64,000 nt of DNA, from NCBI GenBank assembly GCA_014871385.1, contig CM026433.1, positions 14,387,985-14,451,984 on the forward strand, written 5' to 3'. The position numbers and the translations under genes were made by a program. Below are positions 1,151 through 34,139 of this stretch, one piece after another. Below the pieces are notes generated by a model. That model was not told the origin of the DNA, made no database searches, and saw only the letters and a program-made list of their open reading frames with translations. How positions within the stretch are numbered: the stretch's first letter is position 1; every line of letters begins with the position of its first letter. The stretch comes from Ceratodon purpureus (lineage: Eukaryota > Streptophyta > Bryopsida > Pseudoditrichales > Ditrichaceae).

Positions 1151-1748
1151 GGGCCGATTTACATCTGGGGGCCGGGCCAATTCAGCCCCTTTGAGGGCTG
1201 AAATCCTCAATCGTGATTGGCCGAGAGGAAAAAAATGGCCCCAACCCCTTTACACCTAGTCCTCGGGCCAAGTTGGTGGCAGAATTTTTTTAATCAAGAA
1301 ATGCAAGGTCTGACATGGCCCGAGCTCGGTGAATTGGGTGCACCGAGAATGGAAGCCAACTCTTGGCCTCGGGGCCAATGTCAGAGTTTAATTTTTTTTT
1401 TAAATCATAATAAAAAATCCTTTCTCCTCAACCAATCACAATAATTCCCGCAATTGCAAGGTATTGAGCCCACCACCTCGTAGCTACGAGGAAGGAGCCT
1501 ATGACATTCTCGTCCACCGTATCCTTCTTTGGTCCTTCATGTTCACCATTGATAATTGATTGGTTTTCTAGATTTATTGGATTGGCCCGGCTTCTTGGCC
1601 CAAAGGCCATTACATAAGGGAAAATTGGCCCTTGTTCTAATCTTATTATAATGGGGACTTGAGGACGGCCCCAACCCAAAAATGGGCTGAAATTTCAAGC
1701 AATTGGCCTCAAGAAAAATTGGCCCGGCCCCTAGATGTAAATCGGCCC
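1151..1748. mobile_element. Harbinger/Tourist-like MITE with TAA target duplication
   Basis: The left end reads gggccgatttacatctgggg and the right end is its near-exact reverse complement (…gatgtaaatcggccc), giving terminal inverted repeats of about 30 bp with one or two mismatches. The trinucleotide TAA flanks both sides (1148-1150 and 1749-1751). A 3-bp TAA/TTA duplication is the hallmark of PIF/Harbinger elements and their MITEs. The roughly 600-bp interior has no transposase and its two ORFs look fortuitous, so the element is non-autonomous. Superfamily assignment rests only on the duplication length and the ends. Confidence 0.8.
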
Positions 1749-1870
1749 TAATTGGTTGTCAAACTGAGGACCTTGATTATTCATATGATTGGAAGAAAGA
1801 TCCATCAAGAATACTCACCAAGAATACTCTGTAATTTTTCAAATAGTCTTCAGAATTCCTTCTAGTTGTT

Positions 1871-2576
1871 AAGGTAGAATGACCTTAAACCGTGCGGCCC
1901 CCCAGAAGCGCAGGGTAGACCGCCCCTGTAGCCGCCCATGGCATGGACCTTATTGCGTGCACAGCAATTTCATAAATAGTGACTCAATATGGACATGTGT
2001 AGGGAGGTGGTTGGTTGGGGAAAGTTCGTATGTGAGCGGAGAGCGTAGAGCGGAGAGCGGAGAGCACAGAATGGAGAGCACAGATTTGACAATTAGCAAA
2101 ATTTTCAAAAGCAAAGTAGACCCTATAACCGTGGGAAATTACTAAATTAAGGCTTGATTTTGACACTTTTTTTAGGAAAAGAGTATATTACCGTGGAATT
2201 CAGGGTTATCTCGGGTAAGAATTTATTACGTTTGTTCTCTAAGATACAAATTAGGGCTGATGTCATGATGACGTCATGCATAAATTTTGTTAGATTTGTC
2301 ATGGGTTTAGGCAAGATACAATGATCAGGCGTTAAGTTTTAGATTAGACAAATAATTCTTTCATAGGTTTATGTAAATGCACAAGGAAAAAAACAACTTT
2401 CACAGAACATGAAGGAGGCAAGGTTTGAAAACTTCCTTTACATACACGAGTATAAACTGGAAATGAGAATCATAAATAATTTAGTGGTTTGCAATAGAGT
2501 AGACGATGCAGTATGTAATCAACTCCACTGAAATCAAATCAAATCAAATGGAAACAATGATAGGCCTCTTTCAAAC
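1871..2576. repeat. Left terminus of the 16.2-kb transposon (TIR and subterminal repeats)
   Basis: The outermost 26 bp are the perfect TIR. About 2030-2090 holds tandem gagcggagagc units, mirrored in reverse complement at the right end. About 2115-2140 holds accctataaccgtggg, also mirrored. The remainder up to the stop codon of the leftward gene at 2577 is AT-rich and is probably its 3' untranslated region. Subterminal repeat clusters of this kind usually bind the transposase; that role is inferred here. Confidence 0.75.
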
Positions 2577-5500
2577 TTAGAAGATGCTACAGTCGCTACT
2601 TCCACTCTCAGAACCCGATGACTCAGACTCTCCTTCTACAGCCTCTTCATCGACAAAAAGAAGGGCCCTGGGATCAAAATTAGTGGGCCGACTAGGAACA
2701 TATCTAAGTGCACCACATTGAAGCGCTTGTGCTAAGCCCTCTGCATAGTCCGGAAGAATAAAAGGCTGAACCGGGCTGGAATTAAGACGCCACGATGGAG
2801 TGAACACGGCTCTATGCCCACTTGGCGGTGTTGTCACAACTACTCTGCAATAGAAAGCCAGAAGTGGTTAGATCGAATAAGTAAATTTGCGTACAGGAAT
2901 AATACTAGATGCATTGCACGAAACATACAAATTCTAGAGTAAGACTTACAATACTTAGTGGGTCTTTGTTTCTTTGCTGGTGCTTCCTCTCCTGCTGCCG
3001 GTCTAGGATGTTTAGGGGGGCCCATGGGAGATTTTGCGGCCATATACGGTTTGAGAAGGGCGTTGAATATGGCTTCGTCATCCTCAAAAGCTATAATATG
3101 ACGACCAATAGCCTGGCAAGCCTTGACAGAGGCCCCTGCAACTCAAAGCAAGGTGAAGACGTGAGAAACTGAGGAAGGAATGAAAGGAATAATTCTGTAG
3201 AGACATGTAAGAACGATTACCTGTTCCTGCCTTCCAGTCCAGGACTATGTCGCCGGGCTTCGAGAGCTCTACAATTATGCTCTCCATCATCTCACGGGAT
3301 TTCTCCCTTGGCCCTCTCCATGGAACATCCCCATTCATTTGCTGAGAATCAACGTCGGTCCAGTTGAAAATCGCATCACTCTCGGTAATGTTGAGGTCGC
3401 CATGTATGACATCGGATTTCCTCGTTTGAAAGGAGAACTTAGATGGCGGCTCGCCACCACGAACGAAGACTTGGATCCAGAACCGATTAGTCTGCAATCA
3501 ACCAAATTATGTCAGAATGAATAAACGGAAGGGATAGTACTAAGTAAAGTGAAGGAAAGGAAAGGATGAAATTACCAGGTTCTTGGGGTTCGTAGGAGAA
3601 GTCAGGCCGAGCACATTGAAGCCCCACCAGTCTTTGTAAAGGACGAACTTAGTGGCGCTAGCTTCTTCGAGAATCTCCGTAGCCAACGCTTGATCATTGT
3701 TGTAGATGATGCACAAAGCGCCATCATTCTGCAAGTAAAGATTTGCGAAATAGAAAATGTCGTACACATAATCCTTTTCACGGGAGTTCCAAGGAGGAAT
3801 CACTGTAGGGGGGTCGGAAACAAGAGGGACAGGAAGATTCTCAGGGATGTCAACGATGATCAAGTCCACTCCTTGATGATTCTCATCCTGGCACCGCTCA
3901 GGTACTTCATTCTGGCGGCCACGTCCAAACTGCAGAAAGAAGAAAATAGGGTTAGACTATATGAAATTAATTAAAGTGTATGTAATATCGTATTATGTAA
4001 GAAGAGAATCATACCTTGCGCACGAACTCTAGAGTTTTCACCCAATCCGGATGGCCACCCTTGTCTTTGAGCTCCATGTTACGAACCAGTAACGGGGTCA
4101 CGGATGAGTTGATGATAGAAACACCAGTGGAATGGGGAGTTCCTGCGGAGGAGGTGCTTGCCGGGAGAAGTCTGGCCTTCCGTTGCTCCAGAAGACCTCT
4201 GGTGATAGCGGATGCACTGACCGATGAAGGCGCAGGAGTAGGGGACGGATTGGGAACGACAATAACAGGAGATGGAACGGCAGCGCCCTTCTCCGGTGCG
4301 GAGGACTCTGCACCAGTCTCCTGAGAGCCCTGGGACTTAGATCCCAATTTTCGCAGTCTCCGCGCCCGCCCTTTCTTCGGTGGAGGTGCAGAGGACTGAT
4401 CCTCCAGGCCTTCGTCATCCTGTGAATCGGCCCTTGAGTCATCGGCAGTCACCGATCCTCCATCATGCAGTGCCTTAACCTCGGCCTCTGAGTCGATTAC
4501 GAAACCACCAATGCAATCGAGATACCAGCATCCACTGGTCAAGTGCGGAGGCTTGTACTTCTTCACTTGCTGGGGGGTGTAAATACATTGGTCAGAGCCT
4601 TTCTGAACCCATGCAGCAAAGTATGATGGGAGGACATCATCGTGAACGGCACCTTTCGGAACAAGCTCTCTCTTGAAATACCTGATCAAGGTAAAGAACT
4701 TTGTCAGAACCGATTTCTAGAATTGGATAAAGCAACACAATATTGAGGCAGCAATTAAATGTAGCATTATCATACCGGTAAGTCACTCGCTTGACTGCAT
4801 CGGCAGCTCCCGGAAAATTGGTGAAATCCGATTTCTTATCGAAAGGCTTCTCTGCACGACGTCCAAGAAACGTTGGAAATGCCTTATCCCATAACAAGAT
4901 ACGCCAACTCTCGACATATGCATCTGGCCGAAGGATACCTGGAGTTGCCTTCCACTTAATGACCAGGTTTTCTGCCTTACAGATATCCTCGAACGCAGTT
5001 GTCACGGCTTCCTCCAGCTACCACATGAAAGTGAAAATGATTATGACAAATATTTTACGTGACAACCAAAAAAAAGGTAGTGTTAAAAAGAAGTTTTCTA
5101 GAATTTGTACCCCTGCCCAGAATGCTGCCTTGTTCAACCATGGGTCGAGGTCAGCTTCCTTGAACTCAGGAGGGAGGAACCGGTAGGAAGCCCGCAAACT
5201 TGGTGAAGAGTTCCACCACCTTAGCCACCGCGCTTTGTATTTTGCATCGACGGCTGTAGGAACAATCTTCGACAACTTATCCAATGTCATCTCTGGCCTT
5301 GAGATATTACTGTAATGCCGGTTGATCTGCAAAAAGACAATATCAGAGAAACCATAAGTAGATGGCCTAGAAGTACAAACGAAGGTGAAGAAATGGCGAT
5401 GGCATGTCTGTGAACTAACCTCTGCCAAGAAGTCATCACCGTTCTTTGGATTCGCTAGTTGCAAATACTTGGTGAAGTCTTTCTTCTTGATGGACTCAAC

Positions 5501-6572
5501 CATATTTTCTGATGCCGTGGTCATTGCATCCCAGACACCAGTTGCTGTCTGTTCATCCAGAGGTGTTTTATCCTTGTATGCTCGAACTGCCTCGTCTGCA
5601 GCAACCGAGATCTCTCGCTGTAAAACAAAGATGGGATTCAATTAGTTAAGAAACAAAAACGTCAATGACAAAGGAGGAAATAAAGTAGTAGAAACTTACG
5701 CGGTAAAGAAACGAAATGAAGACTTTCGTTGTCAAGGTGAACCATCCGGGAATCGATGGCTTGTTCGTCAAGCAGATCTGGTATTCCTCATCTGTGAGAA
5801 GATCCTTGAACTCTTCCAACTTCATGACACCGAAAGACCGAATTCGAAAGAGCTTGGCTGGGAGGTTGCTCTTCACGTGATCATTCTCCGTAGACCTGAA
5901 GTTTGATAAATAATTTATTAAGTCGAAATTCGAAACATATAATGTGCCTCTAGAACATAAAAAGTTATATTAGGGAAGATGTAAATACCAGTTGATATCG
6001 TGCATGGCATGGAGGAGGTTCCCAATCTGGCCACGTGGGTCTAGTACTATGCAATGAACGGATATGTGCCACTCCGGGTCCTCAGAATGATGTGAGTTAA
6101 TATGTCTAAACCAAGCCGAAAGGCGATGGTTACCTTCCCAGACATAAAACATCTTTCCGGAGAACTGCTGCAAGTCAGGGTCTGACTGGAGGTCGAGTTC
6201 GTAAGCTTCATTGGCTCTCTGCCAATATTCGCTCCACTCACCTATAATTGCATCTGTAACATCCGCAGTCTGCTCTTCGTGGTTGTACATTGAAATGTAC
6301 AAAACACGATCCCCGTCTCTGTACCCATTAACGAATTCGCGCTCGAGATGCTGTACTCCCATTTCCCCAACTGGCCTTACTTTCGCCATAGGGATCATCC
6401 GACACAACGGCACAAGCATACGGGACTTCTTCACTGGATCAATGCGTAGGTTGTTGATGACGCTGATGGGGTCTGGCTTGTACTTCGTTCGATAAAGCAA
6501 CTCACTTTCGATGGCATTGCTTAAGGCTACAGGGCAAGATGATGATGGCAACACGTCTTGTGTTTGAGTACC
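2577..6572 (-). CDS. ParB-like / permuted DNA-methyltransferase-like protein (10 exons, 5' exon assignment uncertain)
   Basis: Ten exons keep phase throughout: 6572-5989, 5895-5700, 5617-5420, 5326-5111, 5017-4776, 4681-4015, 3929-3576, 3491-3221, 3135-2950 and 2842-2577, encoding about 1059 residues to a stop at 2577. The first exon contains FYVWEGNHRLSAW (near 6110-6150), matching the ParB/Srx-like G-x-x-R-x-x-A signature. The last exons form a permuted N6/N4-type methyltransferase fold: a motif-IV position reading VDIPENLP (near 3850) comes first, and the SAM-binding strand LDWKAGTGASVKACQ, split by an intron at 3135/3221, comes last, followed by AIGRHIIAFEDD as in bacterial N6/N4 enzymes. 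The usual DPPY is replaced by DIPE, so catalysis is doubtful. The 4015-4681 exon includes a Pro/Ser-rich linker. The first exon opens in phase 0 without a good ATG, so it needs an upstream exon. Confidence 0.72.
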
Positions 6573-6694
6573 CTGGCAGAGATCATATAACGTTCATAGT
6601 GAGACAAAAGTAGACAAGTATAGGAAAGGTAGAACGTCATAATCTCATATATAATGATATCTTAAAACAGCAAAAGGATAGTGTGCTATAGCAT

Positions 6695-9600
6695 CTAGAT
6701 ACGTGGTGAGCGCCTATAGTACTCCCTAGAAGATGGACTACTCCAATGAAGGCGCCTCCTCCAAAATCGCCTGGTCCGTGGGACAGCAGAGGGCAGGATT
6801 GCCGGTAGACCAAAAACTACATGAGCTGGCCTCCTCATCCTAATTGGCGATGAAGGAGAAGGTGGAGACATAGGTGGAGAATCCTGGGGGAGAACCCTGG
6901 GAGATGTCGGCACATAAACAGGAGAAGTAGGCATGTACACCGGTGATGTAGGCATGTAAACGGGAGAGGTGGGCATGTAGTGTGGAGACTGGACCTCGAA
7001 AGGAACACCACCTACATCTACAGAGTTTGCTACAGCACAGGTACAATATGGCTGGTCAAATGAATCCGATAAGTCCGAAAGATTGATCACTGTAATCGGG
7101 GAACTCATGGACAGAAGTGCATCAGAACATACCTAGAAAAACAACAAAGACAATAAGGTTAAATTACTATTTGAGAATGAAGGAGTATCATTAGAATTCA
7201 TAAATCGAATTTAAGTACCTCTGTTTCCGCAGGAATGGGGCCATCAGCTTCGCTCCCTGTGGCAGGATCGGTGTACTCCTGCACCATAAACCCAGACTAT
7301 GTTAACAATCTTATAATAAAATCAAATCGAAACAACAAATTGGACTTCACCCAGCACCCGCATTCTGCTCCGAATGCGACCCCAACAACCGCCATGGCCT
7401 CGGCTTTCTCCCTCCCCACAAAGCTCCCCATCGCGGCCGCGGCCCCTTCCCCCACTTCTCCCATCACTTACCACCCGCATTCTGCTCCGAATGCGACCCC
7501 AACACCCGCCATGGCCTCGGCTTTCTCCCTCCCCACAAAGCTCCCCATCGCGGCCGCGGCCCCTTCCCCCACTTCTCCCATCACCTTGCATCCGCATTCT
7601 GCTCCGAATGCGACCCCAACACCCGCCATGGCCTCGGCTTTCTCCCTCCCCACAAAGCTCCCCATCGCGGCCGCGGCCCCTTCCCCCACTTCTCCCATCA
7701 CTTACCACCCGCATTCTGCTCCGAATGCGACCCCAACACCCGCCATGGCCTCGGCTTTCTCCCTCCCCACAAAGCTCCCCATCGCGGCCGCGGCCCCTTC
7801 CCCCACTTCTTCCATCACTTACCACCCGCATTCTGCTCCGAATGCGACCCCAACACCCGCCATGGCCTCGGCTTTCTCCCTCCCCACAAAGCTCCCCATC
7901 GCGGCCGCGGCCCCTTCCCCCACTTCTTCCATCACTTACCACCCGCATTCTGCTCCGAATGCGACCCCAACACCCGCCATGGCCTCGGCTTTCTCCCTCC
8001 CCACAAAGCTCCCCATCGCGGCCGCGGCCCCTTCCCCCACTTCTCCCATCACCTTGCATCCGCATTCTGCTCCGAATGCGACCCCAACACCCGCCATGGC
8101 CTGGGCTTTCTCCCTCCCCACAAAGCTCCCCATCGCGGCCGCGGCCCCTTCCCCCACTTCTCCCATCACTTACCACCCGCATTCTGCTCCGAATGCGACC
8201 CAAACACCCGCCATGGCCTCGGCTTTCTCCCTCCCCACAAAGCTCCCCATCGCGGCCGCGGCCCCTTCCCCCACTTCTCCCATCACCTTGCATCCGCATT
8301 CTGCTCCGAATGCGACCCCAACACCCGCCATGGCCTGGGCTTTCTCCCTCCCCACAAAGCTCCCCATCGTGGCCGCGGCCCCTTCCCCCACTTCTCCCAT
8401 CACTTACCACCCGCATTCTGCTCCGAATGCGACCCCAACAACTGCCATGGCCTCGGCTTTCTCCCTCCCCACAAAGCTCCCCATCGCGGCCGCGGCCCCT
8501 TCCCCCACTTCTCCCATCACTTACCACCCGCATTCTGCTCCGAATGCGACCCCAACAACCGCCATGGCCTCGGCTTTCTCCCTCCCCACAAAGCTCCCCA
8601 TCGCGGCCGCGGCCCCTTCCCCCACTTCTCCCATCACCTTGCATCCGCATTCTGCTCCGAATGCGACCCCAACACCCGCCATGGCCTCGGCTTTCTCCCT
8701 CCCCACAAAGCTCCCTATCGCGGCCGCGGCCCCTTCCCCCACTTCTCCCATCACTTACCACCCGCATTCTGCTCCGAATGCGACCCCAACACCCGCCATG
8801 GCCTCGGCTTTCTCCCTCCCCACAAAGCTCCCCATCGCGGCCGCGGCCCCTTCCCCCACTTCTCCCATCACCTTGCATCCGCATTCTGCTCCGAATGCGA
8901 CCCCAACAACCGCCATGGCCTCGGCTTTCTCCCTCCCCACAAAGCTCCCCATCGCGGCCGCGGCCCCTTCCCCCACTTCTCCCATCACCTTGCATCCGCA
9001 TTCTGCTCCGAATGCGACCCCAACACCCGCCATGGCCTCGGCTTTCTCCCTCCCCACAAAGCTCCCCATCGCGGCCGCGGCCCCTTCCCCCACTTCTCCC
9101 ATCACTTACCACCCGCATTCTGCTCCGAATGCGACCCCAACAACTGCCATGGCCTCGGCTTTCTCCCTCCCCACAAAGCTCCCCATCGCGGCCGCGGCCC
9201 CTTCCCCCACTTCTCCCATCACCTTGCATCCGCATTCTGCTCCGAATGCGACCCCAACACCCGCCATGGCCTGGGCTTTCTCCCTCCCCACAAAGCTCCC
9301 CATCGCGGCCGCGGCCCCTTCCCCCACTTCTCCCATCACTTACCACCCGCATTCTGCTCCGAATGCGACCCAAACACCCGCCATGGCCTCGGCTTTCTCC
9401 CTCCCCACAAAGCTCCCCATCGCGGCCGCGGCCCCTTCCCCCACTTCTCCCATCACCTTGCATCCGCATTCTGCTCCGAATGCGACCCCAACACCCGCCA
9501 TGGCCTCGGCTTTCTCCCTCCCCACAAAGCTCCCCATCGCGGCCGCGGCCCCTTCCCCCACTTCTCCCATCACCTTGCATCCGCATTCTGCTCCGAATGC

Positions 9601-11582
9601 GACCCCAACAACCGCCATGGCCTCGGCTTTCTCCCTCCCCACAAAGCTCCCCATCGCGGCCGCGGCCCCTTCCCCCACTTCTCCCATCACCTTGCATCCG
9701 CATTCTGCTCCGAATGCGACCCCAACACCCGCCATGGCCTCGGCTTTCTCCCTCCCCACAAAGCTCCCCATCGCGGCCGCGGCCCCTTCCCCCACTTCTC
9801 CCATCACTTACCACCCGCATTCTGCTCCGAATGCGACCCCAACACCCGCCATGGCCTCGGCTTTCTCCCTCCCCACAAAGCTCCCCATCGCGGCCGCGGC
9901 CCCTTCCCCCACTTCTCCCATCACTTACCACCCGCATTCTGCTCCGAATGCGACCCCAACACCCGCCATGGCCTCGGCTTTCTCCCTCCCCACAAAGCTC
10001 CCCATCGCGGCCGCGGCCCCTTCCCCCACTTCTCCCATCACCTTGCATCCGCATTCTGCTCCGAATGCGACCCCAACACCCGCCATGGCCTCGGCTTTCT
10101 CCCTCCCCACAAAGCTCCCCATCGCGGCCGCGGCCCCTTCCCCCACTTCTCCCATCACCTTGCATCCGCATTCTGCTCCGAATGCGACCCCAACACCCGC
10201 CATGGCCTCGGCTTTCTCCCTCCCCACAAAGCTCCCCATCGCGGCCGCGGCCCCTTCCCCCACTTCTTCCATCACCTTGCATCCGCATTCTGCTCCGAAT
10301 GCGACCCCAACACCCGCCATGGCCTCGGCTTTCTCCCTCCCCACAAAGCTCCCCATCGCGGCCATTGCGTCGGTGCTCCCTCTCTGTATTATTGAGTTCA
10401 CTCTCCCCTTGGTGCTCGCATCCCTCCAATCCCACAATACAAACTGAATAGCAAAAAGACTTACCCCACCCATGGCCGAATTCGGGTCAGTGTCATCCCC
10501 CGCGACCTCCATTTCGACTTCGTCGCGGTCGTCTGTTTCGCCGTCCCCACGGCTTTCAATGTCGTCGTCCCCTCCGCCTTGGCTGTCTCTCTCCTCGTCG
10601 TCACCGCCCCCAAACGCGTCTCCGGCCCCTCCACCTATGTCAACGTCGTAAAGGTCATCTGCTTCTACCATCTCTCCCCTGACCGCCCTCACACCTGCGC
10701 CGACCCTCCTAGCTTGGCTCGACCTCCCTCCCCGGCCCGCCCTCCCTCCTCGGCCTGCGCGTCCCGCCATTGCTTGCCCCCCCTCGCCTGCCTCCATGAT
10801 CCGAACTCGAGCTCTCCGCGCCTCGGCTCGCAAGGCTTCAGTTGCCTTTGAGGATGCTCTGCTTGGAGCTGCGATCTCCCCCCCAACCCTAAGCTCCTCC
10901 GTAGTCTTTCCAAAGAATGACATGCAATGCTCATTAGAAATCCGTGAGGCCTAGACCTAACCTAGGTTCTCCAATTTGAATCATTGTGAATGTACTTGAT
11001 TAAAAGGATGTTCCAAGTCTTTTACCCATAATCTCCTCATTGTTAGTCATTGCATCGAACTAGATTACACACAACTGATAAGAAAATATATAATGCGTAA
11101 CTATCATCAAACAATTTTAAGGAAGATTGTTTAGAACTTACTTCTCCTCCGTAAATAATATCTTCAGATTGACAATCTGTTGCTTTTGACGAAGAGTCCT
11201 TAAAGCTCAAAGAAGGTTGCGGAGTCTCAAGAGCTTCACTACAACTGGGACCTAAATCTGCTGTCATTTCTAATTGTTTTTGCCTGGTACTTATAATATC
11301 CATCTCTTCCTGCTCAACTACAAGCCCATCTAATATCTCATCTTTCTGCTCCGGTATAGAGTCTAGAACGAGTTTACGAATGCTATAAAACTTACGGGCC
11401 AAAGGCAGTCCAGCTCCTTGTCCCTTTAGAGGTGCACTCAAAATGTTACCTTTGGACTGCACCTTTCTACGTGATTCTCTCCTCTTTCTCGCTCTTCTAT
11501 CCGTGAAATCTGTTCTGCCTGGTTTTCTCCTAGGTTTAGGAGTGACATAAGCGGAGGGAGCTGGCCCTCCACTCTCCTTCAT
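6695..11582 (-). CDS. Basic/RG-rich protein ending in CTD-like heptads; probable N-terminal part of the ParB/methyltransferase locus
   Basis: Four exons in constant phase: 11582-11142 (ATG at 11582), 10929-10465, 7278-7219 and 7132-6695. Exon 1 is Lys/Arg-rich ([24 protein letters not shown]), suggesting nuclear localisation or nucleic-acid binding. Exon 2 has RG repeats followed by an acidic stretch. Exon 4 carries the four heptads [21 protein letters not shown] and YVPTSPR, matching the RNA polymerase II CTD heptad at Y1, P3, T4, S5 and P6. Read to its own stop, exon 4 ends at 6695 and gives a 467-residue protein. A possible in-phase donor inside it (agg|gttctc, exon edge 6896) would join the phase-0 acceptor at 6572, making one protein of about 1460 residues with the downstream ParB/methyltransferase exons. 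The large intron 7279-10464 contains the minisatellite. No known family is recognised for the whole. Confidence 0.6.
7358..10364. repeat. 117-bp minisatellite, 26 copies, GC-rich, one NotI-type site per unit
   Basis: The marker cattctgctccgaatgcg recurs every 117 bp from 7361 to 10286 (25 intervals, 26 units) with very little divergence. Each unit contains gcggccgc, except one copy with a point change near 8370. Two unit types alternate irregularly at the junction: cacttaccacccg (12 copies) and caccttgcatccg (13 copies). Because 117 is a multiple of three and the unit is GC-rich, four of six frames stay open for about 3 kb, giving spurious ORFs of more than 1000 codons on both strands. In the favoured gene model the array is intronic. 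Near-identity implies recent expansion or homogenisation. Confidence 0.95.
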
Positions 11583-12378
11583 GTGTCTAACTAACGAGAG
11601 AACTCTCCTCACAATATAGCTATCCTCCTTACTTCCCTCTAACTTATATATCCCAAACCTTCAACCCCCCTTGACTCAGCCCTAAATACTTACCTTATTC
11701 TAAACCTACTTGAATTAATGAAAATTATAAATAAATTGCATTTTGAATTAAAAGTGATGAAATTAATCTATTTTTGAAGAGAATAAACCAAGCCCACAAA
11801 ATACTAAAAGATTTTAATTAAGCACAGGAATACTTGTATTAAATATGGATGCAAGTGACGGCTCACTCTAATCTCACTCACAGTCTGTCTGTCCAGCAAT
11901 CTATTATGAAAATTGAGGAACCCTTACACTGCATAAAATATAGAATTTGAATAAATCATATGCGTGCATTAGTCCTATTCATATATAACTAATGCATGAA
12001 TACGATTAATTCAAATTCTATATATTTATTGTTTTAAATGCAGAAGGAAAAGACGGCTCTTTTTAATCTAATCACTTCCCAAAGAAATAGAAACTGCTCG
12101 ACTATTTAATCACTTAAAGCAATATTCTGAAAATCTAACCACATATTTATGGGCCTGCAGAAAGCACATTCCAATCAGTTAGCGCCGTCTCTCCTTAATC
12201 ATACATTCGTTACGTAGCAGAATGAATCATTACCTAGTCGTCCACATGGACATTCCAATTTGAATAAAATGATCAACAGCGATGCATCATTCCTCTCACT
12301 TTGCTCTCGCGATACAGCTTGGCTAGTACACTCACTCTTCTTTGTTCTTCCTCTAGTATCTCTGAGTTGCCTGCGAAT
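11583..12378. promoter_or_regulatory. Divergent promoter region of the transposon with central palindrome
   Basis: This AT-rich interval separates the leftward locus (ATG at 11582) from the rightward transposase (ATG at 12379), so both promoters must lie here. A large imperfect palindrome occupies about 11939-12022: the left arm tatagaatttgaataaatc and the right arm gattaattcaaattctata enclose tgcattagt and actaatgca. A pair of imperfect direct repeats (gacggctc…taatct…tcac) lies on either side, near 11857 and 12052. No clean TATA box can be assigned to either gene. Confidence 0.55.
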
Positions 12379-15300
12379 ATGGGGATGGTCTGTCTGTACG
12401 CCCAAGGCATGGGCATCCCTCTAAGGTTTCGCGTAGATGACGATGGTCTAGCTACGGTGTCCTCTCTTCGCCTCAGTCTCAGATTTCATTTTCGTGACGA
12501 TTCCATCAGTATAGAGGAGGAGATATTTGATGACGTTACTGCCGAGGTTACCCACACCCTCGGGCAACCTTCACTGAGAGATGAGAACAACATGTTGCAG
12601 TGGAGACTCCTCCCTGGATCCTATAGAGTCTACGGTCTTACTGATTCTCTGATGGCTGCATCCACTGAGATCCTCACCCCCCGCCGCTCGTCTACTTGCA
12701 CAATTCAGACTCCCTTACCTCGTGATGTCAAGGTCAAAGTCGAGCCTGGTACCGAGACTTCAGATGTAGAGAAACCTCCTCCGACCGTCATATCTCTCTC
12801 TTCTGATGACGAAGTCAGTCCCGTCAAGTCCGTGCCTAAGGTCCACGCAGATGCTCCTCCTTCCAATGTCTCTCCTCCATTGTCCCAGGTCACAGTTAGC
12901 ATTGTCCCCCTCCTTCAACAGATTGCTAAGACGCGTGGGTCAAAAAACATTTTGAAAAAGATAGACTATTCCACTATTAGACACGAGAGAGTAGAGTACT
13001 TGCCTGCGAAGTTTGATGGTCCGGTTCTTTTTGAGTTGTCCCCAGCTGCTGCAGGATCCTCTAAGCTCGCCGCCAAGTCGATGCAGGGAATGGACAAACG
13101 ATACGACGGACACTTGTGGACCAAGACCATCACAACAAACATCAAAAACGACTTCGGACTCTCTTTTCGAAGTTCCACCTGCGTCGGATGGCTGCGCTGC
13201 AGCAACCAGGAGTGTGACTTCCTCAAGCGTGTTCCCAAGATCTTCGAGGTCAACGAGACTGAGTTCGAAGGCTGTACCCTGCAAGCTTTTGTCATGGACC
13301 AGCCTCCTCCATCTGACTCCACGCTAGTGTGCAAGGTATGTAAAGAACCTCCATCATGTGTAGCTACATGCGAGGCTAAGATTTATTACGTTGTGGGCAA
13401 ACCGAATCAGACTAGAGCTTGTATTCACATAGGAACACATGATCATCCAGTGAAAGTTGGAGACTACAGAGACTCTAAAGCAGAGATTAGCAGCTTAATA
13501 GAAGAGCAGGTAGAGATGAACAACAAAGCAACAAAGAGCGCCGTCGTCCTGGAAGCGAGCAAACTCCTCATCGGGAGCTACCTTCTACAGCCCGAGGATG
13601 CACCACCGAGGAAGCTGACGATGGAGGAGCTGGTTCCTGTTCTGGATCGATGCAAAGACATGGCGTCGCCCAACATCCGCAACAAAGTCGCCACCTTCAA
13701 AAAATTCGTAAGGTACGGAATCATGGACGGTATCACCAAGCTCCGTGGTAACAGTCTCTGGGCGTATGTCCAGGAGAATAGGTTTCCGGGTCAGGGATCT
13801 ATGCGTGACAAAGTCTTTGTCTTCAAGATGTCGGAGGTTGGGCCGGGCAGTGGTGTCGACTTGGTCAGCCGTATGCAAGCTGGTGGCGACTTGGAGAACG
13901 CATGGATCATGTTCGACCATGTCAAACGCGTCAAAGACTGGTCGACGATGGCGTGCCATGTGTACGACGCCACCTACTGCCGCGTGATGACAATCGCCAC
14001 TTGCGACATGCAGTCCGAGGACACGGACGCCCAGCTCGTCTTCTGGAAAAACCTGAACCTGGTCATGGAGATCAATGGCGTTGCAGCGCCGAACTTCAAG
14101 GGGTTCATGGCGGATAACGCACAGGCCAATTGGAATGCAGTGCGGATCCTTTACGGCAATGGCAACAAAGAGGACCCAATGGAGGACCGGGAGAGGTCGT
14201 GCTTGTTCCACTGGACTCAGAACATGGTGGCGTATACGCAGAAGCACTTCCCCGAAGAACTCTGGGAACAGCACAAGAAGATGTGCACTCAGTACAAGAA
14301 TGCGACCAGCATGGCAGAGGCGGAAACTCTGTACCACGCGTTGCGAGCATGGTGGGCATCCACCGGGGTCGTTGGCGAGAGCGGGCTCATCAAACTCGAT
14401 CAGTGGCTGTCATTCTGGCACCACCGCTTCCGCCAGTGGGGGGGATTCATGACCGAGGTATTCTCTCTGCACTCTGTTTTGATGTTTTTGATACTGGTTT
14501 CCTAGCCCTAACCTACAAAAGTCTAATCCGTGAATCTAACGGCACCTACTGTCAAACCTGCAGAAATTCACGAAAGAAGAACTCACAGAGATGCCCACCT
14601 GTAACCTCGCCGAAACAGTTCACAACAAGTGGCTCCAAGCTTCAGGAAACAACGGGAACGACCTCTACGTTGCTACCGTGGACGATTTCGTTCGGGCATT
14701 TCTACAGGTTGTCAACTACTACCAGTTCCTCAAAGGTGACGTCGGCGGAACAGGACCATCCAAGAAGGAACTCAGGCTCCGGATGGCTGAACGCAACGCG
14801 AAGAAATGGGGAAATCCTACACTGCTCGACAAGCCCATGCTCGATATGCCAGGCGCGGATGAGTTCTGCACTCGTCAGCCTATCATGCCTGGAGCGGAAG
14901 TCTTCGGTTCACAGAAACGAAAAGCCGACGTCCTTATCGGAGCTGACGAGGAGTCTCATCGCCCGGACAAGACAAACTTCTCACGCCCAAGAGGCCCAAG
15001 ACGTGCCGTCAGGGCTCGCCCTATGCAGATGCCCGTCATAGTGGAAGAGGACTCCGAACACGACACCGAGGTACAATGTACCCAACCTCCTGCCCAGGAA
15101 GTTGATTCCCCTTTACCTTCACCTGTGAACAAGGGCGGCATTCGCCATGTCAACGCGGTTGAAGAAACGAAGGTCGACGTCAAGGAATGGCACATTTCGA
15201 GACTTCACAAACTTTCTGCGAAGTGCTGCTGGGCCCAAAGAGCTGAAACGAAGAAGAAGTGCACTGAGAGAATCGTCAGGGGACCCCTTTGCACAGCTGC

Positions 15301-16057
15301 ACCGACCTACACTGGGCTCTGGACTAACTATCGCAGGAACCTAGTGGAGAAGACTGAGTTCTTCTTCTGCTCCGACGATATTGAGCGTTGCGTGAAAGGC
15401 TCTAAGCGCAAGTGGGTAGCACACTACTCAAAGGACCAGGAATTCCCCTCCATTCCAGAGGTGTGGCCAGTGAAACTAGGTACTAACCTAAAACTTACTG
15501 AGATTCTTGCCCTCGAAGCAGCGGGCTTTCAACTTCCGCAGAAGAAACCGGTCTCCCCAAGACGCCTGTTCTCCTCTGCCCCGCCTCCTGCAAATCTCAG
15601 CTCAGTGCCAGTCCCTGCTGACGCTGACCGCTACCCAGGCAAGAGAGACGGCAAGATGGTGAAGCGCACTGCCACTCGTCCCAATCAAGCGCAGCGACTC
15701 TCCATGGGCTCCTCCGAATCTCTCAAAGCGCGCCTCCATTCCGTCACCATGATACCTGAGCCGGGCCACGGTTGCATCATTGGGCTGGATTCGGGCGTCG
15801 CTCCACACATCACACGGTACCAGATTACCATCAGTTCTTACCCTGGTTGCACTTGCCCAGCATTCAAGAAGACAATGACTACGTTCCGTGGGAAGACTCA
15901 GTTCACGTATTGTAAGCACCTATACTACATATTCTTGAAGGTCTGCAACCGTGATCCCGAAGCGGAGCTTTTCATCCATGCGCCTACCTTCAGCTTCAAC
16001 GAGGTCAAGCTACTCTTAGAGAGTGGAATCTTGCGTCACCCCTTGGCGAAGAAGTAG
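12379..16057 (+). CDS. MULE-type transposase with FLYWCH/GCM-like and SWIM zinc fingers
   Basis: Two exons, 12379-14457 and 14564-16057, separated by a 106-bp GT-AG intron (gag|gtattc … ctgcag|aaa), encode 1190 residues. An N-terminal low-complexity part is followed at about 270-360 by a Cys/His cluster (C-x-x-C, CxxCKEPPSC, HIGTHDH) like the FLYWCH/GCM DNA-binding fingers of MULE transposases. The DDE-type catalytic core is suggested by D530 (in HVYDATYCR), D579 (in FMADNAQANW) and E710 (in LAETVHNKW). RSCLFHW after the second Asp is also typical. A SWIM finger (C1122-x-C1124 … C1143-x-H1145) lies near the C-terminus. The frame is open and no damage is seen, so the protein could be active. 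The ORF extends upstream of 12379 without an ATG. Inferred role: excision and integration by binding the element's inverted repeats. Confidence 0.85.
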
Positions 16058-16311
16058 GTAGCCCTCCTACTTTAGAACTTCCATTTCCACAATGGCCATT
16101 TGTCACGTAGTGAATGATTTTAGTAATATACCATATACTAAGTCAGCTATTGAGAAGCTGTATTGACTTTTTCATTATATTAAAGGCTTTGGCGTTCACA
16201 TTGATTGCATTCTATTTCAATACATTGTATCTTGAAGAAGTGCACTATATACCTCGTATCCCCTGACATGTACCCTTTATTAAGGCAAACATATACTTGT
16301 TATTAGATGTT
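16058..16311. other. 3' region of transposase gene
   Basis: Short AT-rich spacer between the transposase stop codon and the convergent small ORF. It probably holds the transposase 3' untranslated region; ttatattaaagg-like and ttaataaat-like A/T tracts are present, but no unambiguous polyadenylation signal can be assigned. Confidence 0.4.
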
Positions 16312-16750
16312 CTAATCTTCGAACCTACCACGTTTAGGGTTGCCCACTACACTATCAGCAGGACTGCCAGCCGCTGACTGTACTACAGGAGAAACTACAT
16401 TCGCATTCACTTTCGTTCCCACACTTGGCAAATGTCCTTGGTATGATCGTTTCAGCAATGGCCCGATTAACTGATTCCCTGGAATAGGTTCCCCTTGGGA
16501 TCTTTCCAACCTTCGAGTACGCATGTGGTTGCAAAGGCACATCTGCGTCCTTCTCTAGCACTCTGATATCATCCGAATTTTCTGAACGTGGAGGGTCAGC
16601 TCTTACATCCGGTTGTACGTCAACATCCCTTGTCGAAGGACGCCCTTGGCTGTTGCCCATCACCTCTTCTTCGTCGTCCACCTCAACATATGGTTGAAAT
16701 GGACAAACATCGTCAGCAAGTGAAACAACAATATCTCTGACGTCTTCCAT
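16312..16750 (-). CDS. Small acidic hypothetical ORF(s) convergent with the transposase
   Basis: Two overlapping minus-strand frames both look coding. One starts at ATG 16750 (MEDVRDIVVSLADDVCPF…, 131 codons to 16355) and is acidic in its first half. The other runs from about 16542 to 16312 and ends in a basic tail, GNPKRGRFED. They overlap over about 190 bp. The simplest readings are a single gene whose frame was broken by an indel, or an intron I cannot place. No family is recognised. By position it is a candidate third gene of the transposon. Confidence 0.4.
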
Positions 16751-16899
16751 AGCTGTTGTCCCGCACTACGGAAAAGAGCTTCACAAAACACCAACACAAA
16801 AGAGGCTGAGACATTCCCTACTCTTATCTTAAATATCCCTGAAGGAGATGCTTGGCGCCCTTGAAAATCGGATATTCATTCATTTGAAAGTTGCATCTT

Positions 16900-17260
16900 C
16901 CTCAACTGAATGGAAAAGGATGAGGGTTGAGCAGAAGTCATTTAGCTTTTAAAATTAAAAAATAATAAAAAAAATTAAAAAAAAATTATAAAAGCTAAAA
17001 GGAAAAAAAGCAAAAATAAATATTAAGGTTGAAAATAATATGAAGGCGACTAAAAAAATGAAAGAGAAAATAAAATGAAAGACAAAATAAAATGAAAGAG
17101 AAAATAAAATGAAAGAGAAAAAAAAATGAAAGAGAGAATAAAATGAAAGAAAAAATAAAAGGAACTAGAAAATAAAATGAAAGGAAAAATAAAATGAAAG
17201 AGAGAATAAAATGAAAGAGAAAAGAAAATGAAAGAGAATTAAAGGAAAGGAAAGATAGAT
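16900..17260. repeat. Purine-rich minisatellite (aaaataaaatgaaagag units)
   Basis: A run of imperfect 17-bp tandem units built from aaaataaaatgaaagag dominates about 17040-17230, preceded by an A/T-rich low-complexity stretch from about 16945. The top strand is almost entirely purines plus T. No coding signal is seen. Confidence 0.8.
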
Positions 17261-17540
17261 AGAGTAATGGAAGTTAATATGAAGAATAAAAGAAATAAAT
17301 TATGTAGACCATGGCGGATGATTTCTAACAATGTTAAGAAATTGTTACGATATTAAATGTTACTTTATCCCTCTTAAGAGCTTTAATACCAATACATTTT
17401 ATGCGGTAATTTGCATATAAATTTGAGGAGATAAAGGGAATTAATGTATGCCTAAACTAGTTAGAAGGAGCTGGAGCATAGTAATTGGTGCACGTTAAAA
17501 AATTAATCATCAAAAAAAAGAGAAAACGAACTACAAATTC

Positions 17541-18068
17541 AATGAAAACACTGTAATTATTCCACGGTTATAGGGTCAATAAAATAACTAAAATTAGTAT
17601 TTTTCCTAAAATACACTAAGAATATTCGGATCTTCTAATTTTATAATTTATTTTTAGTAAAAAAGTTGCTATTTTTAGGTTCTGTCCCCCATTCTGTGCT
17701 CTCCGCTCTCCAAATCTGCGCTCACCGCTCTCCGCTCTGCGCTCTCCGCTCACGTACAAGCTTCCCTCGTGGTTGGTTCATGGTTCATGGTTCATTAACT
17801 CTATTTTGCACGGTTTTAGCTACATGCGTGAGCGCCACAAAGTACTCGTCTGCCGGATAAAAAGGAGAGTCTACTGATCACTTTAAGGTCATGTACACTT
17901 TTCGCTTCAAAAATTTGTAGTAAATTCAGTTTTCGCTATTTAATTCTGGAAATTTTTGCATTCACTCTCCCTCCTGTTTCCCCATCCAAGAAAAATTACA
18001 AACAGTACACACGAGGTCCACAACCATGCTGAATCTCTTATTCGCACGGTTTAAGGTCATTCTACCTT
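17541..18068. repeat. Right terminus of the 16.2-kb transposon
   Basis: Mirror image of the left end: ccacggttatagggtc (about 17560-17576), a ctctccgctctc-type array (about 17697-17752) and the 26-bp TIR (18043-18068). An additional partial copy of the terminal motif, tttaaggtcatgtacac, lies inside at about 17880-17897, so this end looks like a duplicated or extended terminus compared with the left. Confidence 0.75.
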
Positions 18069-18252
18069 AGTTTTGGTTTGATGGAGGGTGTTAGTTTTGT
18101 TACTTCTCTCTTCCCGGTTAGTCTCCTGGCTCTGGCTTCTGCCACCTAGCACAGTCTCCTTTCGTTGCATGTAGGATTTATCCAATCCTCGTTACTTTGG
18201 TTCTACTAAAGCAAAGTTTCTGTGGCACTTGGTTTAACCCCTAAAGGATGTC

Positions 18253-19086
18253 GGCTACTGGCGATACGAGGAGAGCTCAGACGTATTTTGGGGGTATATG
18301 TGGGTTTAGGGTGCATTTAGGTCCTGCTTTGCTATGCAGATTGAGGTCGCAGAAATTTCTACAGATGCGCCTTCAAGTGGTGGAGACACTGCTCAAAACC
18401 CAAGTGGATTCCGTGTTCTGCAGAAATAGTAATGAATTTTGAACCACGGAGGGGTGCGGTGATGTTGTTCACGAGGAGCTCCCAGAATATTCGTAGAGAC
18501 ATGGCATAGGGTCAGGACAGCCTGCACGACAAATGGACGGGTGATTGTAGGTCCATACGCAGGAAGGTTACAGGAACAGCCGGTAAGAGAGTGGGTTGTC
18601 CGTGTTCGGAAGTAGACCTGAGCGAATGGGGGACTGTCGTCGTGGCCAACTGCCCGGTGTGTCAGAATGTCCCAGGAGTGTGGCATCGGGCGCTAGGGTC
18701 AAGAGTGGGTCTGCTCTGTTAGAGACCGGAGGAGAGTAGAGTCCCAATAGTTCGACATTAGAAGTAGTGCCGGTATAAGTACTATTTTATTTAAGATTCT
18801 CCGCAAAACAGAGCACATACAATTACTCCTCCACAACATATGCACAGAGGTCACAAAATAGAGGATGCTTAGCTACAAAAGGTAAGAGGTTCGCAAAAGA
18901 TCAAAAGTCACCCACGGGATGCAGTAATGAGCAAAAACCTTAGCAGGCTGCAGGGGCATAAATCCTGTATAAACCTATCGTTGCTGACTTCGTAAAGCTA
19001 CCCCCCCTACCACTACGGAAGACAGACGGCAACGACATTGACTGGGAGAGGAAATCACGATTAGCGTCGCATTAGCTCTGTGAAGG
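18253..19086. other. Non-coding left part of the TTAA element
   Basis: No coding exon is supported between the left inverted repeat and the stop codon of the B3-like ORF at 19087. The interval probably includes that gene's 3' region. Short ORFs here lack any recognisable domain. Confidence 0.4.
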
Positions 19087-22000
19087 TCACTCCTTCTTCA
19101 CGTGAAACTGTGGCAGGTCTTGAACCTTCGTGAACACAAGTGTGTCTCCCACGGTGAGGTCGTTCATCTCCACAAATTCCGCCCATCCACTGGTGAAGGA
19201 ACAAAAGGTTTGCTTCCGTGCCACACAGACGGAGCTCTGAACAACAGACTCACGCGGAAGTCCTATCAGAGTGTGATGAAGGCCGTCGAATTTCTCTGCT
19301 CCAACGGTGCGCCAGTAAGAAGTCGGAATGTCCTGCAAGCAGCCAAGTCTAAAGACGTAAAAGCTCTCCCAATCAGTAACGACTACTGCATGCGGCATCG
19401 TCCTAAACTGTGCTTCCAGAGAAGAGCCATTGAATCCGAGAATCTCCGAAGCAGAACAACTCGTTTGGAACATCACTAATGTTTCCAAGTGCAAACACGG
19501 AAGTAATGACAGGACGCGTAATGCTCCGGGGGACCGAGACAGAGTCGCCGAGAAATTCAGGGGAATTTTGACGCACTTACAAGTCTTGCAGACTTGTTAC
19601 GGCGGCAATGTGTGGAGTGGAGAGTCTTGCGGAAGTTCAGGCCATCAGCAGTGATCAACGGAGGGTTCACCGCAGTCGGGGGCGCAGGGTTCAAGGTACT
19701 CGGGACGGCAGGGTTCTCTTGAACGACCTCCCTCGACCGGGGTGCACGGCGTGCCACGCTCGCGACCAGGCAGCGCTCATCAACCACCTCGAACACTAGC
19801 CTCCTCTTCCGTGGGGTGTATGGCATTCCCTGCAGCAGAAGATCCTCCAATTGCCGACCCCGATCTTTGTGTACCGTTCACTCCGTGAACTGCAGCAGGC
19901 TCCAACGGTCCACCCTCGTTGAAGCAATGCTTCCGCTTATCCCATCCGTACCCGTGTCCCCCTTCACTCCCGACCGCCCTCACATCTGCCCCTGTCGCCA
20001 CTCTGACGTCGGCCTCGTCCATGTGTCTCTCCTGGTTGTAGCCTCCTAGGTCGACCACGATCATCTTCTTTCCCGACCCCAAGCACAGTCCCTCCCCGAT
20101 CACATCGCCTTGCGTCCAAGACGGTGTGTATCCTGTATGGAAGGACGATTCCGAAATGAAACGGTTCGGAACCAGCACCGCCCAGCCCTTTCTAGCGACG
20201 CTCCAGTCTGTGTACAGGTCTGCGAAATGTGCTCGCATGTCTGCTGTTGGCGTCGCAATTGTGGTGGCCCCGAAGCTGCCCGGGTGAGTCGCTTCGAAAC
20301 CATGTGCTTGGCGAGGACCTCTGTGATGCCGCCACCCACCCCCCCGAAATACGGAGTCGAACAGGTTGACATTGACGGTGTCCATGCTCCCGGGTGTGTG
20401 CTGCGATTCTGGCGCTGTAAGGTCCACGGATTCGTCTTCCATGCCTTCGAGAGATCTGCGAGGACTCCGCTAATGACTGTGTCATTCAGCCTTTGCTGCG
20501 TCCCGGATGCTCCCAAGGTTCTCCACGCCCGCGTAACCACGCCCGGTGTTTCATTCGGTGTAATGCCCTCCGGTATCCACTTTGTTGGTTTTCGCGGCTT
20601 CCCCTTCCCCTTCCCCTTCTCCTGTTCCGTAAGTTGCGATCTTCGTTTTTGCGCTGAAAATATAGAACTCACCGAAAGGATGATTAGAAGGTAGGGGCAC
20701 AGCTTTGAATTTTGGGGACATATGTTTCGGAGAACGCGTAAACTAATCATTTGCGGAGCCAGAGTACGGGATGAACAAAATCGTCGGGCTAAGGTAAACG
20801 TACCTCTCGTTGCCGTCAAGGAATGCGGGGGGGGAGGTCCGATCTCGTTTGGGACGTCGCTCAATGGCATCGGTGTTTGCGTCCCGGGAGTGCCACGGCT
20901 TTTTAGCGGTTGCTTCCTTGTGTATGGCTTCCGAGGCTTCTTGGTGACCACCTGCGTCCCGATTGGCTCCGTCCGCGGGTCCGCATTTTCGTCTCCAGAA
21001 ATGTCCCCCACAGAGAGGGGTTGCGTCGAAGGCGGTGTCATGGTGGACATCGCCAAGCGCCTTGCTTCTTCCATCTGCAGCGTAGATGTCACATCATTAC
21101 TCATTGACCGAAGCACATGTCAACAGAGGGCCGGTTCATTGCTACGACGACAATGAAATAGTCCTAAAACCTATGAACTTCATTGGACTCGGCATATAAT
21201 CCAAATCTACAGACGTCTACAGCACATGTAAGTGAACAACATCGACTGGGTACCATGTCCTGCAAAATGCTTTAGAGCGTCAACTTCTACGTGCTGTGAC
21301 TCTTCCTAAAACAAGAACAGAATTCTGGATTCCATGCGTACAATTCGCCAAAATAGCACATGTAGGTTCATTTCATTGACTTCTTCTATGACCACTAACA
21401 TCATATGGATCCAGCAACTTACCTCTTTCTTGGTTCGTCGCTTCCGCTTCGCCTTCACAGGCGCTTCGACAGTCGCCCGTACCTGCTCCTCGAAGTCCTA
21501 CACACAGAACGATATAGACATGGAATTAGTTCCTGTGAAGTCCAATGCAGGCAGTGTAGGACATGCCCAGACCTCACCCCCGCGTCTTCTAAAATCTGGA
21601 TAGAATAATATTTCCGTTTCAAACTCTCCCCTCCGCAATCAACACTTTGGCATGGCTCATACTGAAGTTTGTCGCATTTGACCTACATAAACCCGAAACC
21701 CTAAGACCAGAATTTCACATACAGGGTCCGCTAAAATCTTCCACATTGTCAGGAGGCCGAGGGCACTTACCTTCGGCGTGGAAGCTGGGCGACCGTCTGC
21801 TTCTCCCGCCTTCAACCTCGCACGCGCAAGTGTCTTCATCCTTGTCGCCGGGACTTGGATAAATGTGATGGCGTAGAATGTCAGTAACGACTCCGGGGAA
21901 TTGCTTCCGCTCACACCAGCCTAACAATTTCGCAGCGTGTCTGTACCACAAGTACCTCGACCTCTCCGGAATTCCAAATTTTCCTCTGCGATTCCACGCC

Positions 22001-31799: not shown

Positions 31800-32736
31800 T
31801 TAACCCCTAAAGGTTCTGGAAATCCAAAATGGCTCTCAGCTGTTTCGGGCAGCCTAGATGAAGGGGTTAAAAGTAATATTTTTGCCTAAAAATTTTACTA
31901 GATGCTCCTTATACCGCAAAGTGTATGTGGTAATATTTTCAAAGCCAAATTTCACTTTTAGAACCTTCATCTAGAAATTTTAGGTTTCAAGTCCAAAACG
32001 GGCAGTTTAAAATTAGGTTTTTTTAGATTTTTTTTTTTGGAAATGTGTTCATAACCAATTCACTACTCAAAATCCAAAGTCGCCTAAGTCAAAAAGCTTA
32101 CCAATTTTACAAGGGCAGCCTCCAAAAATCACAGAAACAACCTTCACAGTTTTTGGTAATTTTACAATTTTTTCTTTCATAATTTGTCAAAATTTGAGAT
32201 TTAGGAATTTTTCAAATTTTTTTTTTCCGAAAATTCAAAAACTCATGGAAGTAACTTTTGACCGTTTATTTGTTTTAAAAACCAAAAGCATTTCACGTCA
32301 TTTAAGTTTTACCAGATTGTGGTTTTTGTACCTTCTTCTCGAAAATAATTTGCATGAAGGCCAAAAAAGTGTAATGAGACTCTAAAATTTTGCACGGAGG
32401 TGCCCAACTTAGTTACCTACGTGGAAAAAAATATGAGCAAAATGTTTGAAGTAACAATAATCAAGTCTCCCTTGGCACCATTTAGAGTATGTCTTTTGCG
32501 CAAAGCCAAAAAAAAAAAAACAGTAAACTTTGAACGTTATAATCTCACAAATGGTAAAGATCCAACCGTTGAAATTTGACATGGTATTAGTGCAGGTAGC
32601 AAGGTTTAAGATCTTACGGTTGGATGTATCAAAAAAGTAAAAAATTAAGAATCATACTTCAACTTCTACAAGGTTGTCAAAAATCACAGTTTCTGGTTTT
32701 GGAGGCCCAAAAACGGCTTGAACCTTTAGGGGTTAA
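31800..32736. mobile_element. 0.94-kb TTAA-bounded MITE sharing ends with the 4.55-kb element
   Basis: The left end ttaacccctaaaggttc (31800-31816) and the right end gaacctttaggggttaa (32720-32736) are perfect 17-bp reverse complements with TTAA at both edges. The first 14 bp are identical to the ends of the element at 18235-22784. The interior has no convincing coding sequence, so it is a short non-autonomous member of the same family. Confidence 0.8.
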
Positions 32737-33915: not shown

Positions 33916-33980
33916 ATTCAATGGATAGTCGTGTAATGTTAATTCAAATGCAATTAACATTACACGACTATCCATTGAAT
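33916..33980. repeat. Perfect 29-bp inverted repeat (hairpin)
   Basis: The arm attcaatggatagtcgtgta… (33916-33944) and its exact reverse complement (33952-33980) are separated by seven bases. A third, partial copy (attaacattacacgactat) follows directly in tandem with the right arm. The structure lies about 160 bp upstream of the 476-codon ORF. It could be a transcriptional element or a fold-back remnant. Confidence 0.9.
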
Positions 33981-34139
33981 TAACATTACACGACTATAAA
34001 GGCAATGAATCACAAAGCTTTTTTGAAAACTACAAAAGTAAAAAACAAAATTGTATGATGTTATATTAAATTTATAAAAATAAGTAGCGATAACATTGTT
34101 ATTTAATCTTGAATATTTTTCAACATTTTTGAATCCCAA

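Follow-up and report, generated by a model that had tools for sequence, protein, structure and literature searches.

The 21.5-kb element Sola1-1_Ec32 of the brown alga Ectocarpus, a member of the Sola-1 superfamily, carries opposite its transposase a gene for a 1104-amino-acid (aa) protein with ParB-like and N4C/N6A methylase domains, for which self-binding and modification have been proposed (PMC12477816). The same article points to ParB-methylase cases from green and red algae, citing Iyer 2011 and the Bostrychia genome paper. VANC, the second protein of the Mutator-like VANDAL elements, removes silencing from copies that carry its tandem-repeat motifs (PMC5735166), and related VANC proteins have different targets (PMC5735166; PMC10398659). 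MuDR and other Mutator-like elements (MULEs) have target site duplications (TSDs) of 8-11 bp, a SWIM-type transposase and sometimes two genes, often antisense to each other (PMC6446971). As to the purpose of ParB-methylase genes in giant transposons, PMC12477816, in 2025, could go no further than to propose self-binding. Here we describe a 64,000-nucleotide stretch of Ceratodon purpureus (GCA_014871385.1, contig CM026433.1, positions 14,387,985 to 14,451,984 of the forward strand), hereafter the window. It holds a Mutator-like DNA transposon of 15.75 kb, whose insertion into an older miniature inverted-repeat transposable element (MITE) duplicated 10 bp of target. The transposon has a transposase gene, a divergent ParB/methylase-like gene (gene 2) and a central tandem array of dyad-symmetric sites (dyads). 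Among its copies, the type of the dyad core follows the type of the ParB exon while the transposase stays constant.

The best 86 of 2506 candidates from a transposase protein search of the 362.5-Mb genome (G000) scored 98-100% aa identity. For at least 29 of these 86, a listed ParB exon in divergent orientation lies 6-13 kb upstream, where 0.39 would be expected by random placement. Two other copies were read end to end: E1, on the chromosome-scale contig C2, has the TSD TAATTTTTAT, and E4, on contig C7, spans 1190-20483 of its joined stretch with GCAACGAGCA on both sides, as taken from the printed flanks. Both share the ends of the window element, and both have the two genes in divergent orientation. 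Gene 2 is also present in eight of ten further copies, for each of which a 4.8-kb stretch was read; the remaining two stretches were uninformative. The transposase and the ParB/methylase-like gene travel together in many copies, and the co-conserved pairs that the initial annotation suggested looking for are present.

The two genes have diverged to very different degrees. Transposase DNA fragments from the ten copies with both genes are 97.6-99.6% identical in all 45 pairs, whereas the ParB exons of the same copies fall into four groups with 70-74% identity between groups. Genome-wide, among the matches listed, 9 of 150 ParB exons are 88-100% identical to that of the window and 141 are 70-74% identical. 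The ratio of nonsynonymous to synonymous substitution (dN/dS) for gene 2 is 0.15 against E1 (dS 1.2) and 0.19 against E4 (dS 1.1); the transposase dS for the same copies is 0.10. Along gene 2, dS declines toward the shared left end, from 2.3-2.5 (saturated) in the ParB exon through 1.8-1.9 in the middle and 0.6-0.7 in the methylase part to 0.3 in the last exon. Copy L069 combines a ParB exon of E4 type with a methylase exon whose start resembles the L067 group, so the ParB and methylase parts have also been shuffled. A gradient within a single copy was seen in L070 (1403-4728), where the aa identity of gene 2 to the window is 99% at the last exon and 63-82% toward the centre, a conversion-like pattern.

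A tandem array is present in twelve of the thirteen stretches examined, and the thirteenth, L070, stops short of the centre. Array units are 108, 117, 171, 190, 200-202, 210 or 224 bp long. In nine stretches, no perfect inverted repeat within the unit is longer than the dyad: CGCATTC..GAATGCG in the window, GGCATTCG..CGAATGCC in L067 and L073, CCTACTGTC..GACAGTAGG in E4, L065, L068 and L069, and GGTGTCTGCT..AGCAGACACC in E1 and L066. The observed stem was reached in 0-2 of 300 shuffles for six of the nine and in 5-10 of 300 for three, counts that are not independent because several copies share a type. A symmetry-blind motif search of six units (window, L067, L071, E1, E4 and L069) placed the best shared motif at the dyad centre in all six at widths of 10, 12 and 14 bases, with equally good motifs in 9, 12 and 1 of 100 shuffles, respectively. 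When all pieces were compared, the arrays fell into five families (window; L064/L067/L072/L073; L071; E1/L066; E4/L065/L068/L069), between which there was no match at E 0.01 save one 14-base stretch in L066 and L068. Within families, the arrays of E4 and L069 have the 24-bp dyad in common at 92% identity and beyond it weak AT-rich pieces alone. Those of E1 and L066 are identical (100%) over 34 bp surrounding the dyad and match at 91% in a second block of 32 bp, and the pairs L064-L067 and L068-L069 are related more widely. The array families are unlike one another except in their dyad-symmetric core.

Dyad similarity correlates with ParB identity across seven types (Mantel r 0.58; 47 of 5040 permutations). 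With the shorter site of L071, r is 0.63 (7 of 5040); leaving out any one type gives 6-47 of 720, and leaving out both L064 and L071 gives 3 of 120. As a check, we fetched the centres of four of the eight other window-type copies, picked by ParB identity before their arrays were seen. A 117-bp array is present in all four (L074-L077). The dyad of L074 is identical to that of the window and lies in a related array; the array of L077 is 68% like that of the window over a stretch, and those of L075 and L076 have no match to it.

The conserved part of gene 2, on the minus strand, consists of ten exons with GT..AG borders that splice into an open frame of 1059 aa, a minimum for the whole gene. The last exon has two AG acceptors side by side, and we used the second because the first gives an immediate stop. 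The initial annotation had described a second divergent locus of up to 14 exons encoding a ParB- and DNA-methyltransferase-like partner; the orientation and both protein parts are borne out, and ten exons are supported. The ParB-like part has a predicted ParB N-terminal fold with a G-x-x-R box. The methylase-like part, in the same gene opposite the transposase, exceeds the Pfam cut-off for N6_N4_Mtase (PF01555); the Pfam search of gene 2 gave no other domain above cut-off, and no ParA was seen in the gene models of the element. Active N6A/N4C methyltransferases have (D/N/S)PP(Y/F/W) as their catalytic motif IV. The corresponding position in gene 2, which aligns to the DPPY of DpnA and CcrM, reads D[IV]PE (DIPE or DVPE) in all eight copies with that exon, none of which has the motif of an active enzyme, and HMMER pieces spanning it score about zero. 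Judged from this motif, the methylase may be inactive. Standard methylation is doubtful in view of the altered catalytic motif of every copy read, and the fold probably provides S-adenosylmethionine (SAM) or DNA binding or a structural role. A conserved open segment at 6716-7134 has YMPTSPV-like heptads (four in the window, four in E1, six in E4), which resemble the C-terminal domain repeat of RNA polymerase II, and also a SUMO-interaction-like motif.

We propose, with moderate confidence, that the ParB-like protein binds the dyads of its own array and serves as a self-recognition or anti-silencing module. The ParB-like domain would recognize the dyad as a parS-like site, one per unit, and the bound protein would load or spread over its own element. 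An element tagged as self in this way might be kept expressed, for example by excluding silencing, much as VANC does for VANDAL elements, the closest logic that has been tested; this anti-silencing step is the weaker one and, taken alone, is rather doubtful. A copy that switched its ParB/array cassette could thereby avoid being cross-recognized by the host or by other copies, and the methylase fold would be a SAM- or DNA-binding or structural part. Tentatively, the whole could be a ParB/parS-type self-identity system, in which interchangeable ParB and dyad-array cassettes sit on an invariant transposase chassis, copies form recognition groups like plasmid incompatibility groups, and the methylase fold is non-catalytic. 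A role in marking or protecting the element's own ends, as first suggested, seems less likely than binding at the central array, and methylation as its means is doubtful given the changed catalytic motif. A related possibility is that an active N6A/N4C methylase is recruited to the array through the ParB-like domain and sets a mark there that protects or licenses the element, along the lines suggested for the protein of Ectocarpus (PMC12477816). This would agree with the PF01555 match, the retained SAM-site motif (DWKAGTG and variants, D/E-W-x-AGTG) and purifying selection on the methylase exons (dN/dS 0.23-0.35). However, the second proline and the aromatic residue of motif IV are gone in all eight copies, and we consider an active enzyme distinctly unlikely.

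Several observations weigh against binding of the dyads by the ParB-like domain. MULEs and giant elements often hold minisatellites, and the array could be an ordinary one with incidental or coding dyads, gene 2 acting elsewhere, for instance with the transposase at the ends. The 117-, 171- and 108-bp periods are multiples of three with open frames, so these arrays could be coding. There is no clear signal within arrays: the dyad is unchanged in six of ten and more variable than the rest in two, and segments as invariant as the dyad are common (17-86%). Some types have imperfect dyads, such as L075-L077, with a GCATTCGG..CCGA core whose arms are imperfect in most units. The L071 dyad (TTCGG-ca-CCGAA) is weak, its stem being reached in 39 of 300 shuffles, and is not significant. 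L064 and L072 do contain a GGCATTC..GAATGCC dyad, but their longest repeat is a different one (reached in 9 and 19 of 300 shuffles, respectively). At 16 bases the best shared motif (1 of 100 shuffles) has its E1 and E4 matches outside the dyad. The dyads in the Mantel comparison were selected by us, those of L064 and L071 by eye, and part of the correlation reflects shared descent because ParB and array are neighbours; several arrays within families are related in sequence (L064-L067, L068-L069, E1-L066, and L074 and L077 to the window). Foldseek alone gives a sulfiredoxin as its best hit (E 0.067), ahead of the best ParB (E 0.13), and binding itself is a step that we infer. Yet the dyad also occurs in arrays with periods that are not multiples of three (190, 200, 202 and 224 bp), its core is the common part of arrays from different families, and it is read in different frames in the window and L067 (by eye); an ordinary minisatellite is unlikely. 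As for the origin of gene 2, MULEs capture genes, and it could be a host gene or fragment captured once, as in a Pack-MULE. The 150 scored ParB-exon places among the matches listed, the linkage of ParB with the transposase, the introns and purifying selection of gene 2, and relatives of both genes elsewhere (56 ParB-exon and 127 transposase homologs) make a single capture highly improbable. The initial annotation had itself considered copies that never carry the second locus and a host gene trapped once; the presence of gene 2 in E1, E4 and the eight further copies, and the many linked copies, fit neither.

The boundaries of the transposon differ from those first given, a 16.2-kb span (1871-18068) between perfect 26-bp terminal inverted repeats (TIRs). 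A perfect inverted pair is present, 27 bp long (0 such matches expected; 100 shuffles), but it and the span belong to the host MITE. Scored genome matches to the left 219 bases numbered 40, the window itself and 39 others, which cover the first 146-147 bases only, at 98-99% identity. We fetched and read 27 of these 39 solo MITE matches with 600-1500 bp on each side, and tested for the 27-base end with up to three mismatches, outer TA included; a copy with a large insert would fail this test and not be counted. Both ends were found in 23 copies, 418-452 bp long with an outer TA at each end, and no direct flanking repeats of 3-11 bp were found around these 23. Four copies failed the end test (L041, L052, L053 and L058); the match to the MITE extends over 431-439 bp in two of them and over 169-263 bp in the other two. 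When the window flanks are joined with one copy of GTGGTTGGTT, the resulting 438-bp site is 99.5% identical, without gaps, to the solo MITE L006. Because the joined flanks reproduce this solo copy, a second element was inserted into the MITE with a 10-bp duplication; the initial annotation had suggested seeking just such an empty site with clean duplications. The large element is nested in an older MITE copy and is not bounded by the perfect TIRs. The perfection and symmetric spacing of those TIRs favour the 16.2-kb model. However, the 23 solo copies leave no room for either gene, the empty site is gapless, the exact outer TIRs were found neither in E1 nor in the part of E4 then available, and the inner ends with 10-bp TSDs are common to E1 and E4. 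We give that model almost no credence; the perfect TIRs were rejected as ends of the gene-bearing transposon on the MITE copies, the empty site and the inner TSDs. The mirrored repeats described as subterminal do exist, and are the real ends of the inner element.

The transposase is encoded on the plus strand in two exons totalling 1190 aa and has an IS256/Mutator-like DDE fold. A SWIM motif of the form C-x-C-n-C-x-H, as initially claimed, lies at residues 1122-1145, by pattern match only and with no Pfam hit; such a C-terminal motif is common among MULEs, though not universal. The Pfam search gave no match above cut-off for the transposase and none for exon 2; the best MULE-type profile for exon 1 is Transposase_mut, a weak match (E 0.034) in 2 of 54 exon-1 relatives. 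A ubiquitin/PB1-like start and a GCM-like zinc region in exon 1 are both weak structural leads. TSDs of 10 bp in all three full copies (window, E1 and E4), within the 8-11 bp of MULEs, and TIRs matching at 46 of 54 bases agree with the MULE assignment of the initial annotation. The coordinates of all features are collected in the table below.

Features of the window element, its MITE host site and its genes (window positions)
Feature	Positions	Strand	Basis
Central tandem array with a 117-bp unit (25.7 units) and 26 exact dyads CGCATTC-tgctcc-GAATGCG, starts 7359 (first) to 10284 (last)	7354..10363		Repeat analysis
Gene 2 exon a, ParB/Srx-fold domain, GNHRLSAW box	5989..6572	-	Splicing, comparison of copies, fold match
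Gene 2 exon b	5700..5895	-	Splicing, comparison of copies
Gene 2 exon c	5420..5617	-	Splicing, comparison of copies
Gene 2 exon d	5111..5326	-	Splicing, comparison of copies
Gene 2 exon e	4776..5017	-	Splicing, comparison of copies
Gene 2 exon f, low-complexity linker	4015..4681	-	Splicing, comparison of copies
Gene 2 exon g, methylase part, motif IV position DIPE not DPPY	3576..3929	-	Splicing, alignment, copies
Gene 2 exon h, methylase part to SAM-site motif DWKAGTG	3221..3491	-	Splicing, Pfam, alignment
Gene 2 exon i, end of methylase part	2950..3135	-	Splicing, alignment
Gene 2 exon j, acidic C-terminus and stop	2577..2842	-	Splicing, comparison of copies
Conserved open segment, YMPTSPV heptads; exon or small open reading frame (ORF)	6716..7134	-	68.7% DNA identity to E1; kept in E4
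Conserved open segment in ORF 11043-11660; possible upstream exon or third ORF	11329..11614	-	79% DNA identity to E1, 78% to E4
Transposase exon 1, 693 aa; RNase H catalytic fold, D513 and D579	12379..14457	+	Fold, sequence
Transposase exon 2, 497 aa and stop; NLAE box 14603-14632, SWIM motif 15848-15919	14564..16057	+	Sequence
Inserted element, 15,752 bp	2017..17768		TSD, empty site, E1 and E4 with same ends and own 10-bp TSDs
Left imperfect TIR, 54 bp, with GAGCGGA-type short repeats	2017..2070	+	46/54 bases match right end
Right imperfect TIR, 54 bp	17715..17768	-	Pairs with left end
Left TSD GTGGTTGGTT	2007..2016	+	Flank reading
Right TSD GTGGTTGGTT	17769..17778	+	Flank reading
MITE left part, 147 bp of 438-bp TA-flanked MITE, holds TIR 1870-1896	1870..2016	+	End test, joined flanks
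MITE right part, 291 bp, holds TIR 18043-18069	17779..18069	+	99.5% gapless match of joined site to L006

Some additional features were noted. Within the MITE TIR at 1870-1896, TAAGGT-agaatg-ACCTTA is a perfect inverted repeat of 6 bp, through which either end of the MITE could fold back on itself. The 23 solo MITEs include L057 and L056 (G000 contig C6, 40113446 and 40201117), counted as one event for their same flanks; they lie on opposite strands about 88 kb apart with identical 14-base flanks, and are probably an inverted duplication on that contig. Directly left of the MITE, two 33-bp arms in inverted orientation, 97% complementary and separated by 534 bp, give the region 1150-1749 the look of a further small inverted-repeat element. 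A 17-bp minisatellite (AATAAAATGAAAGAGAA-like) lies at 17054-17260, within the right end of the large element, with additional matching copies in E1. Farther right, the 8-kb block at 32001-40000 is strongly AT-rich, with 22-28% GC compared with about 38-50% across most of the window. It holds a plus-strand open frame of 485 aa at 34113-35570 in which N, S and D are abundant.

A transposon-borne ParB-methylase partner is, as a kind of gene, already published. The initial annotation regarded this partner as a non-standard MULE component; it is unusual for MULEs, but not new as a gene kind (PMC12477816). New here are the near-constant transposase beside divergent ParB exons, the five array families with a dyad core, the tracking of dyad by ParB, and the D[IV]PE motif. 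Among the titles and abstracts listed in searches of open-licence literature for transposon ParB/methylase genes, for the Bostrychia case, and for eukaryotic elements combining ParB, parS and tandem arrays, none concerned a dyad array tied to ParB type. The typed dyad array adjoining gene 2 is a candidate target, for which binding and anti-silencing are directly testable. If the proposal is true, VANC-type arms-race logic was invented a second time, with a partition-type protein of bacterial style as its material, and the system would offer array-specific DNA binders for use in plants.

Compared with known systems, the element resembles MuDR and other MULEs in its TSD length, SWIM-type transposase and two genes, which are often antisense (PMC6446971), but its transposase family has no Pfam match above cut-off and its partner gene is unusual. 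Sola1-1_Ec32 is likewise a giant DNA transposon with ParB-like and N4C/N6A methylase domains in a gene opposite the transposase. However, it is a Sola-1 element of a brown alga, whereas ours is Mutator-like with a 10-bp TSD and comes from a plant; the accessible part of its account, with which we compare by description only, mentions no array, dyad, type switching or motif IV (PMC12477816). The VANDAL/VANC system of Arabidopsis is also Mutator-like, and its second protein and non-coding tandem-repeat targets diverge together (PMC5735166; PMC10398659). In contrast, gene 2 is ParB- and methylase-like by fold and profile, the core of its array is dyad-symmetric, and the transposase stays more than 97% identical while the module changes. 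In bacterial ParB-parS, ParB binds its dyad site sequence-specifically and in a CTP-dependent way, and our element likewise combines a ParB N-terminal fold with arrayed dyad sites next to it. Here, however, there is no ParA in the gene models, the site sequence differs by type, and the ParB-like domain belongs to a eukaryotic, intron-bearing gene in which it is fused to a methylase fold.

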